Position numbers and translations under genes: made by a program | Notes under the pieces: generated by a model | What the model was told of the DNA's origin: nothing | The model's input: the letters and a program-made list of their open reading frames with translations, nothing else | Databases searched by the model: none | DNA from: a virus | Direction: 5' to 3' (one strand) | DNA: 22,657 bases | IMG/VR virus record: IMGVR_UViG_3300030331_001517 | Span: 1 to 22,657 of that record | Part shown: in pieces, positions 11,474 to 17,299 of the stretch | How the letters are laid out: the number at the start of each line of letters is the position of its first letter | How positions within the stretch are numbered: position 1 is the first letter of the stretch

Positions 11474-12145
11474 ATGCCTTATTTACAAAGCAACATCCCG
11501 TATTTTAAATGCTGGGTGAGAAGAGAGTATACGCACAACCATTCTGATTATCATGGCGAGTTTATACATGCTATGGCAATTGCTGTTACAACTATTCCTG
11601 ATAGATGTTTGAGTTTTCAGCTAGTGTTTACAGGATACGAAGCGGATGATGGTGAAACCGAGAATATACACGGGGGTGCCATGTGGGCAAGAATGCCAAT
11701 TACGGCCCTTGTTGCAGACGTTCCTTTGGAAGAATGGCCTGAACAAATGCCAACACATTTAGCACAACCTTGGGATTGTAGTTCTCATTTTCACTCTGTT
11801 TATTGTCTTGACAGAGTTAGTTCTAGCCCTTGGCTGTGTAAAATAGATGGTGAGTTTTATACCGGAAAATATATCTTTACGGTTGATTACACCGAAAATG
11901 AGATAGCAGATGATCCTGCACAACACAAACAAAGTCACTTACTACAATTAACAGACGCTGGTAAATGGACAGGAAATATTGTAGCCTTACCTAATAACAG
12001 GGTTAGAGCAACAAGTCCTGCTCTTTGGGAAACTGGTGAAGGTGCTCCTGATTTTAGACCAAGTCAATGGACACATAGTGCTGAAAGTGATAGTAGTTAT
12101 ATGGACCCAGATATTACGTTCAACAATTTATATTCGGAAGAGTAA
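11474..12145 (+). CDS. Conserved neck-region protein of unknown function
   Basis: The 223-residue protein is rich in Trp, His and Cys for a phage structural protein. Distinct conserved segments are NIPYFKCWVRREYTHNH at about 7-23, HGGAMWARMPITALVADVPL at about 66-85, MPTHLAQPWDCSSHFHSVYC at about 91-110, LCKIDGEFYTGKYIFTVDYT at about 120-139, and ATSPALWETGEGAPDFRPSQ at about 179-198. I recall near relatives placed just upstream of adaptor genes in marine podovirus-like genomes, always unassigned. No ribosome site is obvious. Cys and His clusters could bind a metal. Its strong conservation argues for a core virion or assembly role, perhaps at the neck. Confidence 0.7.
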   Translation: MPYLQSNIPYFKCWVRREYTHNHSDYHGEFIHAMAIAVTTIPDRCLSFQLVFTGYEADDGETENIHGGAMWARMPITALVADVPLEEWPEQMPTHLAQPWDCSSHFHSVYCLDRVSSSPWLCKIDGEFYTGKYIFTVDYTENEIADDPAQHKQSHLLQLTDAGKWTGNIVALPNNRVRATSPALWETGEGAPDFRPSQWTHSAESDSSYMDPDITFNNLYSEE

Positions 12146-12147
12146 TC

Positions 12148-12816
12148 ATGGCTACATCAGGATCTAGAGACTTTGACTTAGACGTTGCAGATATTATTGA
12201 AGAAGCTTACGAGCGTTGTGGGTTAGAACTACGAACTGGATATGATGCCAAAACTGCTAGAAGGTCATTAAATCTTATGTTTGCTGAGTGGGCAAACAGA
12301 GGGATTAATCTTTGGACTGTTAAACAAGGCACACAATCTTTAACTGCTGGAACTGCTACCTACGCTTTTAACGCTACTTTTACTGATTTATTAGAGGTAG
12401 TTCTTAGAAGAGATGGTACTGATTTTGATTTAAACAGAATATCTAGAGGCGAATATTTAAGCATACCAAACAAAACAACACAAGGCAGACCTAGTCAATA
12501 TTATTATAATAGACAAACAATACCTGAGATAAATTTATGGGCAACACCAGATAGCTCTTCAGATACTCTGGTTTATTATTATATTCAAAGAATCGAAGAC
12601 GCAGATGCGTTGGTAAATACCACTGATGCACCTTTTAGATTCTTGCCGTGTATAGTAGCTGGTCTTGCTTATTATTTAGCAATGAAAAAGGCTCCAGACA
12701 GAATACAACTTTTAAAAGCTGTGTATGAAGAAGAGTTTCAAAGAGCGGCCGATGAGGACGAAGATAGAGTTCCATTGAAGTTACAACCAAGTTTTGAGTA
12801 TCTTAGAGTAACATAA
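12148..12816 (+). CDS. Head-tail adaptor, P22 gp4 / tail tubular A-like
   Basis: Adaptor rings sit under the portal and receive the tail. The 222-residue protein has the helix pair of this class: DVADIIEEAYERCGLELRTG at about 11-30 and TARRSLNLMFAEWANRGINL at about 35-54. A beta region follows (GTQSLTAGTATYAF), then RPSQYYYNRQTIPEINLWAT at about 114-133. The C-terminal helix includes FLPCIVAGLAYYLAMKKAP at about 165-183, a stretch matched in P22 gp4-type proteins. The ATG follows the previous stop by two bases and the stop overlaps the next start (TAATG). The class call is good; whether it is nearer to gp4 or T7 gp11 is unsure. Confidence 0.78.
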   Translation: MATSGSRDFDLDVADIIEEAYERCGLELRTGYDAKTARRSLNLMFAEWANRGINLWTVKQGTQSLTAGTATYAFNATFTDLLEVVLRRDGTDFDLNRISRGEYLSIPNKTTQGRPSQYYYNRQTIPEINLWATPDSSSDTLVYYYIQRIEDADALVNTTDAPFRFLPCIVAGLAYYLAMKKAPDRIQLLKAVYEEEFQRAADEDEDRVPLKLQPSFEYLRVT

Positions 12817-13211
12817 TGGGTAGATATGCATCTGGTAAAAATGCTTATGGTATTTCAGATAGGTCTGGATTTAGATATAGACTTTCAGAAATGCGAACCG
12901 AGTGGAACGGTTTAAAAGTTGGCCCAGATGAGTATGAAGCTAAACACCCTCAACTAGAACCCCTTAATGCAGGTCCAGATCCTCAAGCTCTTCGTAATCC
13001 AAGACCAGATCAATATGTGGATTTGATCACCCGAGTAATTGTAAGAACAAATGTTGGTGATGGTTTTATAGGAGGAGTGTTATCTAAATTAGACGCTCTT
13101 ACTATGAGTGTTGGCACCGTGGAAGTGACGACTGCTGCTTTCTCAGCATCGACTTTCGATTCTACAAGTGTTACACTTGATTCAACTACAAAAACTTTTG
13201 ACGAGGGGTAG
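12816..13211 (+). CDS. Conserved small neck/tail protein
   Basis: The 131-residue protein opens with MGRYASGKNAYGISDRSGFR and has MRTEWNGLKVGPDEYEAKHP at about 26-45, QALRNPRPDQ at about 57-66, then a Thr/Ser/Val-rich beta tail. The Lys/Arg/Tyr-rich first 70 residues form a widely shared module in marine phages, usually next to an adaptor gene. The tail varies. I know of no established function. The TAATG overlap with the adaptor gene indicates coupled translation and probably matched amounts. A role in joining head and tail is an inference from position. Confidence 0.68.
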   Translation: MGRYASGKNAYGISDRSGFRYRLSEMRTEWNGLKVGPDEYEAKHPQLEPLNAGPDPQALRNPRPDQYVDLITRVIVRTNVGDGFIGGVLSKLDALTMSVGTVEVTTAAFSASTFDSTSVTLDSTTKTFDEG

Positions 13212-13874
13212 ATGGCAAAGCAAACTGTAGGGATAGGTTCTAGTGCAAATGATGGCACAGGTGACACACTTCGTGCTGGTGCTGATAAAATAAATGACAA
13301 TTTTACAGAGATATATAATGCATTAGGAAATAGTTCTAGTGTCTTAACTGATATTATAGATGCGAATGGTCTTTTTGACGTAAGCTCTGGGGCTAATAAA
13401 ATCGTTTTTTATTACTCTGCATTAACTGATTTGCCAAGTGCTTCAACATATCATGGGGCAGTAGCTCATGTTCATGCAACTGGTGGGTTATATTTTGCTC
13501 ATGGTGGTGCTTGGCTTAGACTAAATGACGAAACATCTGGTCCTGTAACTAAATATATAGCTGGAGTAAATGGGTCAAGTGCTTACACATTTACTGGACC
13601 AGGGGCTACTTCTGGTGATAATCCAAACTTTGTTTTTTATTGTGGACATACTTATCTGATAGATAATACAGCAAACGTAAGTAGCCATCCTTTACAAATT
13701 AGGACATCTAATGGTGGTTCTGCATTTACTACAGGTGTAACAGAAAACTTTAACTCGACCACGGGATTGACACAATTTATTGTACCACATGAACCAAGTG
13801 ATACCACTTTAGTATATCAATGCACTAATCATAGTTCTATGGTTGGAAACATCACAATTATAACAACAAATTGA
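13212..13874 (+). CDS. Fibre-like virion protein with cupredoxin-like C-terminus
   Basis: The 220-residue protein begins with QTVGIGSSANDGTGDTLR and KINDNFTEIYNAL, a well-known N-terminal attachment segment of phage tail fibres and structural proteins. A short beta module follows (about 60-104, ending GGLYFAHGGAWLRL). From about 115 the sequence looks like a cupredoxin: YTFTGPG, then GHTYLIDNT, VSSHPLQI with His159, and VYQCTNHSSMVG with Cys204, His207 and Met210. His plus C-x2-H-x2-M is the ligand set of type 1 copper proteins, so the fold and perhaps copper binding may be retained. Similar domains occur in marine phage virion proteins. A GAGG ribosome site lies ahead of the ATG. Placed between the two adaptor-like genes. 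Confidence 0.68.
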   Translation: MAKQTVGIGSSANDGTGDTLRAGADKINDNFTEIYNALGNSSSVLTDIIDANGLFDVSSGANKIVFYYSALTDLPSASTYHGAVAHVHATGGLYFAHGGAWLRLNDETSGPVTKYIAGVNGSSAYTFTGPGATSGDNPNFVFYCGHTYLIDNTANVSSHPLQIRTSNGGSAFTTGVTENFNSTTGLTQFIVPHEPSDTTLVYQCTNHSSMVGNITIITTN

Positions 13875-13881
13875 ATATGAC

Positions 13882-14526
13882 ATGAGTTATACATACACTA
13901 CACTTAAACAAGCTATACAGGATTGGACAGAAAATGACGAAACAACTTTTGTCAATAATCTTGATGTTTTTATTAAAAACACAGAAGAAAAGATACTAAA
14001 AGGCATAAACCTTGATTTGTTTAGAAAGAACGCCTCTGGGTCAATGACTTCTGGAAACCAGTTTTTAGCTGTACCGACAGATTATCTAGCTCCTTTTTCT
14101 TTATCAATTACAAACAGTAGTAATAAAGAATTTTTATTGTTTAAAGATGTAAACTTTATTCAAGAGTATAATCCTAATCCATCGACCACAGGTACTCCAA
14201 AATATTATGCTCTTTTTGATGTTACAAATTTTATTATAAGTCCTACACCGGATGCAAATTACTCGAGTGAATTACATTATTACTATAGACCCACATCAAT
14301 AACAGCTACGGGGGATGGAACTTCTTGGTTGGGCACAAATGCACCCAATGCAATGTTGTATGGGGCTTTAACTGAGGCGTATATATTTATGAAAGGCGAA
14401 GCAGATGTGCTTCAATCATATCAAGCTAAGTTTAACGAGGCATTAGTTTTACTAAAGAACTATGGGGATTTTACAGAAAACACTGATTACTATAGACAAA
14501 GTGTAAGAAGCACCCAGAGAGGCTAA
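13882..14526 (+). CDS. Head-tail adaptor-like protein (SU10-adaptor type)
   Basis: This 214-residue protein has an N-terminal helix bundle (YTTLKQAIQDWTENDETTFV at about 5-24, then FIKNTEEKILKGINLDLFRK at about 30-49). A beta insert follows (QFLAVPTDYLAPFSLSITNS, EFLLFKDVNFIQEYNP), then HYYYRPTSITATGDGTSWLG and a C-terminal helix APNAMLYGALTEAYIFMKGE. I recall this layout as the adaptor of phage SU10-like and cyanophage necks. It resembles the 12148 gene in overall plan but not in sequence. Two adaptor-like genes imply a two-layer neck, or one is a tail-tube-like protein. Function is inferred from family resemblance. Confidence 0.72.
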   Translation: MSYTYTTLKQAIQDWTENDETTFVNNLDVFIKNTEEKILKGINLDLFRKNASGSMTSGNQFLAVPTDYLAPFSLSITNSSNKEFLLFKDVNFIQEYNPNPSTTGTPKYYALFDVTNFIISPTPDANYSSELHYYYRPTSITATGDGTSWLGTNAPNAMLYGALTEAYIFMKGEADVLQSYQAKFNEALVLLKNYGDFTENTDYYRQSVRSTQRG

Positions 14527-16895: not shown

Positions 16896-17299
16896 GTACG
16901 TTAAAAGCAAACGCAGTACAAAGCCTTTCAGGCAGTGGCACAAATGTAACAATAGGCAATACATCTACTCATGTGTCTGACGCAGGAAATGTTACTCAGA
17001 ACACAGTGCAAGGTTTATTAAAAGCATGGACAGTTGATGCTGATTCTACTGCTGGAACTGTTGGAGATAGTTTTAATAATAGTAGTTTTAGTGATGATGG
17101 GACAGGACAAACAACTATTACTTTAACAAATCCAATGAATACGGCTACAGATTGGTGTGTTACACAAGGCAACATTACAGCTTATCCTTACAAATCTGCA
17201 GCAGAGACATCAACAACTCATTCTTTAGATGTAGTTAATGGTGCTGGAAATTTTACAAATGGTGGTTCAAATGGTCAGGTATCAGGAGACTTAGCGTGA
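16892..17299 (+). CDS. GDLA-array fibre paralogue 1
   Basis: This 135-residue protein is the first of a set of short paralogues. It has the array N-terminus in weak form (MSTLKANAVQS), an extra GTNVTIGNTS segment, then the shared core: VQGLLKAWTVDADSTAGTVG, DSFNNSSFSDDGTGQTTITL. The middle is unique and the end is the shared GDLA. The codons for SGDLA (TCAGGAGACTTAGC) include the ribosome site of the next gene. The core is of the QGLxKAWxNF / DDGTG type common in marine phage fibres. Likely a tail fibre or receptor-contact subunit; this is inference from composition and place. Confidence 0.68.
   Translation: MSTLKANAVQSLSGSGTNVTIGNTSTHVSDAGNVTQNTVQGLLKAWTVDADSTAGTVGDSFNNSSFSDDGTGQTTITLTNPMNTATDWCVTQGNITAYPYKSAAETSTTHSLDVVNGAGNFTNGGSNGQVSGDLA
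17285..17298 (+). promoter_or_regulatory. Ribosome site inside GDLA codons (before 17296)
   Basis: GGAG at 17285-17288 forms part of the Gly-Asp codons of the upstream gene and lies seven bases before the overlapping GTG start. The same string thus encodes a conserved C-terminus and starts the next gene. Confidence 0.75.

Follow-up and report, generated by a model that had tools for sequence, protein, structure and literature searches.

A Cupredoxin Domain with a Conserved, Predicted Type 1 Copper Site in a Putative Tail Protein of HTVC023P-like Phages

The protein P0001 is encoded in a virus record of 22,657 bases, the whole stretch of DNA analysed here and referred to below as the window. 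It joins the N-terminus of a T4 gp9/gp10-type tail protein to a C-terminal domain for which a cupredoxin fold is predicted, and the residues His159, Cys204, His207 and Met210 of that domain occupy the positions of the four ligands of a type 1 copper site. The four residues are conserved across divergent phage relatives, the domain is under purifying selection, and the gene is an optional cassette that alternates, in related phages, with cupredoxins fused to neighbouring proteins. That the site genuinely binds copper is likely, an inference made without metal or spectral data. Our complete reading is of a tail accessory protein whose conserved type 1 copper site is loaded and acts as a contact module; the location, the copper binding, the exposure and the contact role are each inferred, and the statement as a whole is favoured by a narrow margin only.

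The P0001 gene extends from position 13212 to 13874 on the + strand, as do all its features given below, and encodes 220 aa from an ATG start. The tail-attachment part, residues 3–60 (13218..13391), matches the Pfam family PF07880, T4_gp9_10_N, at 1.3e-8 (35.5 bits against a curated cut-off of 25). The N-terminus also matches T4 gp10 among PDB sequences (phmmer, 2.2e-5), and DSSP of the structural model predicts a helix at residues 18–38. The family phrog_677, described as the gp9 baseplate wedge tail fibre connector, matches P0001 at 1.3e-49; its best stretch, residues 108–218, is the C-terminal domain, and two further stretches were not located in position. A fibre-like middle, residues 67–109 (13410..13538), is matched by phrog_9729 tail fiber (2.2e-10) and is modelled with low confidence. 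The cupredoxin domain, delimited by pLDDT, VIA-align and profile matches, takes up residues from about 110 to 220 (13539..13871). P0001 is short in comparison with the 288 aa of T4 gp9, a protein that has a middle domain between its N-terminus and its C-terminal domain. Residues 41–110 of P0001 were modelled poorly by AlphaFold2 (78 sequences), with pLDDT below 50 at residues 76–94 and 96–109.

No signal peptide is visible, by eye only, at the start of P0001 (MAKQTVGIGSS), where the T4_gp9_10_N domain sits instead. The presence of P0001 in the virion is inferred from this N-terminus and from the gene neighbourhood, without particle data. Its cyanophage relative gp9 is not named in the virion proteomics passage of a comparative study of 26 T4-like genomes (PMC3037559), and for both proteins occurrence in particles remains an inference not shown here.

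The cupredoxin fold of the C-terminal domain is predicted by both structural modelling and profiles. In the AlphaFold2 model (78 sequences), residues 111–220 have pLDDT values of 83–96 by blocks of ten. The best Foldseek matches of the model in the PDB are copper nitrite reductase 2dv6 (2.1e-4) and rusticyanin. VIA-align, which aligned 999 chains, superposes the model on 2dv6 with a Z of 11.4 and an rmsd of 2.2 over 97 residues; its best 50 rows consist entirely of copper nitrite reductases, small laccases and rusticyanin. The same picture emerges for the last domain of a second model, built for a T4-like gp9 of the environmental contig L150 (Z 10.8, rmsd 2.0, 92 residues); this second model is poor outside the C-terminal domain (mean pLDDT 70.0) and does not inform on the middle domain of gp9. 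In a library of viral structures, the top named matches of the P0001 model are cyanophage gp9 and proximal tail fibre proteins. The BFVD library also returned two Marseillevirus/Pithovirus entries named “beta-sandwich protein”, A0A481YVH3 and A0A481Z7Q7 (1.3e-6 and 4.6e-5), which may be giant-virus cupredoxins.

Searched singly, P0001 gives no match to any cupredoxin model in Pfam, even with E relaxed to 10; the relationship to cupredoxins surfaces only with profiles or structure. A 13-member alignment was made of cupredoxin domains from isolated phages together with the window protein. Six of its members are matched by PF00127, Copper-bind (best E 0.0013), and the NCBIfam amicyanin, halocyanin and plastocyanin models match seven, four and three members weakly, with best E-values of 0.0054, 0.0042 and 0.00083, respectively. 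All six PF00127 matches to the tail domains in 20 cyanophage records stay below the cut-off of the family. Searched against the PDB, the 13-member profile finds amicyanin (1.9e-4), nitrite reductase 2vmj (2.5e-4) and plastocyanin (2.8e-4), then rusticyanin and pseudoazurin; its top row, copper nitrite reductase 6hbe, owes its 1e-5 to the adding up of two domain matches, neither of which is significant by itself. The best 60 of its 70 rows are all copper proteins by name, except for the weak matches 1k5c and 1gui. A 44-member profile gives 14 rows at E up to 0.01, all of them plastocyanin, amicyanin or copper nitrite reductase, its best E-value of 3.6e-4 being weaker than with the 13-member profile.

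The predicted ligands are His159 (codon 13686..13688), within SSHPLQI, and Cys204 (13821..13823), His207 (13830..13832) and Met210 (13839..13841), within YQCTNHSSM; Cys204 would be the thiolate ligand and Met210 the axial one. The yardstick for these positions was plastocyanin from the cyanophages' own genomes. Twenty of the 21 isolate records were surveyed (AG-345-E02 was omitted); all 20 carry a tail cupredoxin, and 14 of them have, apart from it, a plastocyanin that scores over the Pfam cut-off (L254–L267). Local hhalign alignment of the 44-member profile with these 14 plastocyanins gives a score of 37.7, a probability of 85.6 and an E-value of 5.5e-6; the reversed alignment scores 12.8, and none of 50 column shuffles scores above 17.7. 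His159, Cys204, His207 and Met210 are superposed on the four copper ligands of plastocyanin (H/H, C/C, H/H, M/M), the Met pairing coming after a two-residue gap because the plastocyanin loop is longer. Global mode gives a probability of just 48.6, with an E-value of 2.7e-5.

The His-on-His pairing was obtained only by profile–profile alignment. In plain HMM alignments of the 13- and 44-member profiles against the PDB, the phage HP is displaced by one residue from the PH that contains the ligand in plastocyanin and amicyanin. In 35 of 37 complete phage domains the first His is followed by Pro, where most cupredoxins carry Asn or Asp. An engineered nitrite reductase with the loop CTPHPFM (title of 2vmj) is among both the profile and the structure matches. 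We take CTPHPFM to be the amicyanin loop, and C-x2-H-x2-M to be the amicyanin spacing. That the four residues lie at the ligand positions of the fold is thus inferred from the predicted fold and the alignment; distances between the ligands were not measured.

A first-pass annotation of the window, made from the sequence alone, had proposed most of this arrangement, and its claims can be judged here. The reading frame and the positions of the four motif residues were confirmed. The fibre-type N-terminus held, by the PF07880 and phrog_677 matches, and so did the cupredoxin-like C-terminal half, by predicted fold, structural matches to copper proteins and profiles. Attachment to the virion, stated there outright, is plausible only, resting as it does on the N-terminus and the neighbourhood. 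The claim that the ligand set matches that of blue copper proteins is upheld by the hhalign comparison with plastocyanin, copper binding itself being inferred. Two of the checks it suggested came out as follows: structure prediction returned a cupredoxin fold with copper proteins as best matches, leaving convergence of the four residues to be inferred from fold and alignment, and the search with cupredoxin profiles succeeded with the 13- and 44-member profiles and not with P0001 by itself.

In the close set, comprising the window and 80 loci (57 distinct sequences, 89–100% identical to the query), SHPL and C-x2-H-x2-M are kept in 81 of 81 sequences. In the diverse 13-member alignment, the four ligand residues are four of the nine invariant columns. 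A broader set of domains was collected by tblastn and profile rather than by motif, from the 21 isolate records (hand-picked from the best 60 rows of 332 tblastn matches), from HTVC023P-like records and from extra copies in other records. It held 44 distinct matches, seven of which were dropped for not spanning all four columns. The remaining 37 complete domains have pairwise identities of 13–96% (median 34%), and 36 of them keep all four ligands; the ligand columns rank second to fifth of 93, with the Met tied with a Tyr for first. The profile behind this set was built from motif-bearing sequences and still favours these.

A larger set, partly selected by motif, contains 158 distinct matches, and all four ligands are kept in 148 of its 150 complete distinct domains, the exceptions reading FAVM and DSTI. 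Among the eight copies that do not span all four columns, L090, L152, L202 and L208 are cut by the locus end (L090, L202 and L208 are P-HM1); the others are a copy in S-SSM4, with CRYHALM past a long insert, two pieces from S-CAM1, and P-RSM6. The P-RSM6 and S-CAM1 copies keep the His, with no C-x2-H-x2-M after it. Loci L001–L080 and L103–L182 were fetched with peptide patterns that included part of the C-x2-H-x2-M loop, so that conservation of the Cys, His and Met is partly built in for them; that of the upstream His is not. The first-pass annotation had held that homologues not conserving the four residues would refute its proposal. The counts of 81/81, 36/37 and 148/150 do not bear out that refutation. 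A chance motif, considered as an alternative, is ruled out by the close set, the 13-member alignment and the 37 domains.

Ligand losses do occur, and they are few among the copies seen. The single loss in the 37-domain set, in a second protein of Synechococcus phage RB11-B (FAVM), removes three ligands together. Locus L118 has copies without ligands that read DSTI and DSSA, the latter found by the first profile and missed by the second, and a copy in L364 has Leu in place of the Met. The 833-aa frame of L118 has a ligand-intact cupredoxin followed by two ligand-lost copies, in tandem over residues from about 200 to 484.

In the family of the window protein itself, purifying selection on the domain is strong, as shown for 13 of the 80 relatives: dS ranges from 0.86 to saturation, and dN from 0.03 to 0.11. 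The 13 were hand-picked, and no other genes were computed. Such selection is unlike what would be expected of a diversifying host-range tip, although this contrast is an inference.

Among the phage records searched, the capsid and portal proteins of the window are closest to those of Pelagibacter phage HTVC023P (69.7% and 47.6% identity). On the strength of these closest relatives, an alphaproteobacterial, SAR11-like host is inferred to be the likely one; the second-ranked record, DSL-LC04, points to a gammaproteobacterial host. P0001 is preceded by two neighbours, a phrog_12985 protein (12148..12816) and the product of the adjoining gene (12816..13211), and is followed by a phrog_2941 virion structural protein (13882..14526), whose gene forms the right border of the insertion site; all three are on the + strand. 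A homologue of the 13882-type protein is annotated as an adaptor protein in phage DSL-LC04. The 12816-type gene adjoins P0001 in 78 of the 78 loci with room for it, and the 13882-type gene does so in 63 of 68, starting about 1.25 to 1.4 kb further on in the other five. HTVC023P lacks the P0001 gene, and there the two flanking genes are directly adjacent. No cupredoxin domain turned up when the complete records of HTVC023P, HTVC027P and DSL-LC04 were searched with profiles.

Two other features of the window may be recorded. The protein encoded at 11474–12145 matches PHROG 3704, labelled ferredoxin (1.5e-31), yet its gene lies among structural genes, and the label may be a misannotation. Between 16892 and 22220, there are small proteins that share a GDLA or GELA end (stops at 17299, 17736, 20948, 21379, 21813 and 22220) and that possibly represent a run of related short fibre-like proteins.

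To avoid selection by P0001, loci were also anchored on two flanking genes. Of 152 such loci with both flanks, 19 have a full-length P0001, five match in the cupredoxin part only, and 128 have no match. The median identity to the window in these 19 is 91.7% for P0001, against 86.0, 73.7 and 67.7% for three neighbours. The P0001 gene is, in short, optional in the HTVC023P-like phage group.

Some phages without P0001 carry a different cupredoxin, fused to the C-terminus of the 12816-type protein and usually possessing all four ligands. One cupredoxin search returned 32 distinct domains, 28 of them intact; the other four are the two halves of L349 (in which the His and CFYHNLM are both present), the L364 copy with Met changed to Leu, and L385, which is cut by the contig end. 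In phage 023Pt_psg01, a cupredoxin with all four ligands is instead fused to the N-terminus of the 12148-type protein (L215:2697-3794). The fusion partner is a conserved neck protein, and the annotation is merely hypothetical.

Taking together the loci with both flanks present (63 anchored on P0001 and 154 others), 81 of 217 have P0001, 20 have a fused cupredoxin (19 on the 12816-type protein, all without P0001, and one on the 12148-type), none has both, and 116 have neither. Two of these 116 carry a cupredoxin in a more distant gene. P0001 is dispensable, as the 116 loci with neither form attest. The mutual exclusion has a Fisher p of 5.6e-5, which is just indicative because related loci were counted as independent and 63 of the 217 were selected by P0001 itself. 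More telling on exclusivity are the 3 of 121 clusters (12148-type protein at least 95% identical to the cluster seed) that contain both the P0001 and the fused states; close relatives thus carry one or the other. This alternation of a separate gene and fused domains in close relatives suggests selection on the copper-site domain itself.

A tblastn search returned matches to the domain in 332 of 50,697 phage records, almost all of which belong to Synechococcus and Prochlorococcus phages. In the cyanophage records examined, it is mostly the C-terminal domain of gp9; it occurs as well in a tail spike of P-SSM2 and in a podovirus protein of P-GSP1. The P-HM1 carrier bears the label PF07686, which we take to be Ig V-set. 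Gp10 of S-SSM4 (L210), annotated as a baseplate wedge subunit and encoded next to gp9, contains a long-insert cupredoxin with HPLALS and CRYHALM at frame residues from about 330 to 455, such that two baseplate proteins of one phage have the domain. Environmental viral contigs contain at least 599 relatives of P0001, and carriers with complete frames range from 242 to 1572 aa and have very different N-termini. No plasmid relatives of the domain were found at E up to 1. Bacterial and archaeal genomes gave 25 pattern matches, none of which was confirmed by tblastn, a search limited to close relatives.

We propose the following for P0001. In this HTVC023P-like marine phage, it would be an accessory component of the tail, into which its N-terminus would plug as those of T4 gp9 and gp10 do. 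His159, Cys204, His207 and Met210 would form a mononuclear type 1 copper site with a loop of amicyanin length (C-x2-H-x2-M). The metal would be taken up when virions meet copper, either during lysis of the cell or out in seawater. Once loaded, the domain would be a rigid and strongly conserved module through which the tail apparatus makes contact, as opposed to a host-range tip that varies. Weighing against the copper-site reading are the 116 loci without either form, the ligand-lost copies, the Pfam matches below cut-off, the weaker results of the 44-member profile and of hhalign in global mode, the Pro after the first His, and the great scarcity of free copper in the cytoplasm, the compartment in which phage particles are assembled.

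The main rivals are a metal-free fold and a structural metal staple. On the metal-free account, which remains possible, the cupredoxin fold and its residues are kept for folding and packing, and the domain binds or connects within the tail. It is supported by the persistence of ligand-lost copies as domains, by the occurrence of the domain in many different fibre-type architectures, like a generic module, and, by inference, by cytoplasmic assembly with no export signal visible. Against it, the four ligands all fall among the five best conserved columns of the 37-domain set, whose pairwise identities are 13–96%, the one loss in that set takes three ligands at once, and the cupredoxins fused to other proteins in this phage group mostly retain every ligand though the rest differs. 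The first-pass annotation had offered as its fallback that the fold might be kept just as a binding domain. The conservation of the ligand columns, which is among the highest in the domain, speaks against this fallback; diverged copies that have lost ligands (RB11-B, two in L118, and P-RSM6) mean that it is not excluded.

In the second rival, the residues do bind a metal, but one, Zn(II) or Cu(I), that staples the structure without any redox function and is comparable to the known metals of phage tails. A Cys/His/His/Met set can also hold Zn(II) or Cu(I), the iron in the HxH sites of the T4 long tail fibre is a precedent (PMC11705849), and the axial Met is replaced by Leu in one copy (L364). 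However, for a mere staple one would expect changes to other combinations of ligands, and the type 1 set has stayed complete over large divergence, down to the axial Met; we regard this alternative as unlikely. Least tenable is an auxiliary metabolic role, in which P0001 would replace or supplement host plastocyanin as an electron carrier during infection: fold and ligand set are those of plastocyanin, but the N-terminus is a tail-attachment domain with no signal peptide visible by eye, the gene lies among structural genes, and 14 of the 20 cyanophage records with the domain encode a separate plastocyanin, which together make the role very improbable.

A bolder version of the copper-site reading would place working, redox-active blue copper centres on the tails of marine phages. 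The tail would change its contact state, and gate adsorption, in response to a Cu(II)/Cu(I) change at the host surface or to light and redox chemistry in the vicinity of a cell that photosynthesises or respires. We consider this unlikely. Light-dependent adsorption has been reported for some cyanophages (PMC9229316, referring to Jia et al. 2010), and the domain, if redox-active, would be a candidate sensor for it; phages would also constitute a seawater copper pool, a copper counterpart of the iron Trojan Horse proposal. If copper is bound at all, the tail apparatus of viruses abundant in the ocean includes a complete type 1 copper site as a regular component, and copper joins the iron story of phage tails. 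The site could then be followed by straightforward measurements, namely of blue colour, EPR and metal per particle, and one would have to ask what part a redox metal plays on a virus.

In the open-access literature searched (titles and the starts of abstracts, with subscription papers and preprints outside the scope), nothing was found that describes phage tail proteins with cupredoxin domains or blue copper. The cyanophage gp9 annotations in the records examined mention neither copper nor cupredoxin. The main text of PMC3037559 contains “copper” 0 times, and both of its mentions of plastocyanin concern petE.

Metal in a phage tail protein is itself not without parallel. Iron at HxH sites has been shown in the long tail fibre gp37 of T4 and proposed for the fibre of Alteromonas phage R22Y (PMC11705849). 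These proteins resemble P0001 in having metal coordination, shown, proposed and predicted, respectively, in a tail protein; they differ in that the metal is iron, held in octahedral His sites of fibre trimers, whereas the Cys/His/His/Met set of P0001 lies inside one cupredoxin domain.

Among the nearest known systems is cyanophage gp9 (PHROG 677; T4-GC 398 in the S-SM1 and S-SSM7 records), which shares with P0001 the N-terminal attachment motif and the C-terminal cupredoxin domain, with all four ligands and the same predicted domain fold. The gp9 proteins belong to T4-like phages and are mostly of about 400–550 aa with a long middle, as against the 220 aa of P0001 in an HTVC023P-like phage; that of S-SSM7 has only 244 aa. 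The N-terminal cupredoxin domain of the Hyphomicrobium copper nitrite reductase (2dv6) is the best structural match of both models, but it belongs to an enzyme and is 18–20% identical to the phage domains. Amicyanin and plastocyanin (PF00127, TIGR02657, TIGR02656) are exported soluble electron carriers. They share with P0001 the cupredoxin fold and the H, C, H, M order, and the amicyanin loop CTPHPFM has the same C-x2-H-x2-M spacing. In contrast, P0001 has its cupredoxin as the C-terminal domain of a tail protein, with HP instead of HN after the first ligand and Pfam matches below the cut-off. Within the literature searched, then, the fold and the site are classical, and what is new is their inferred location on a phage tail.
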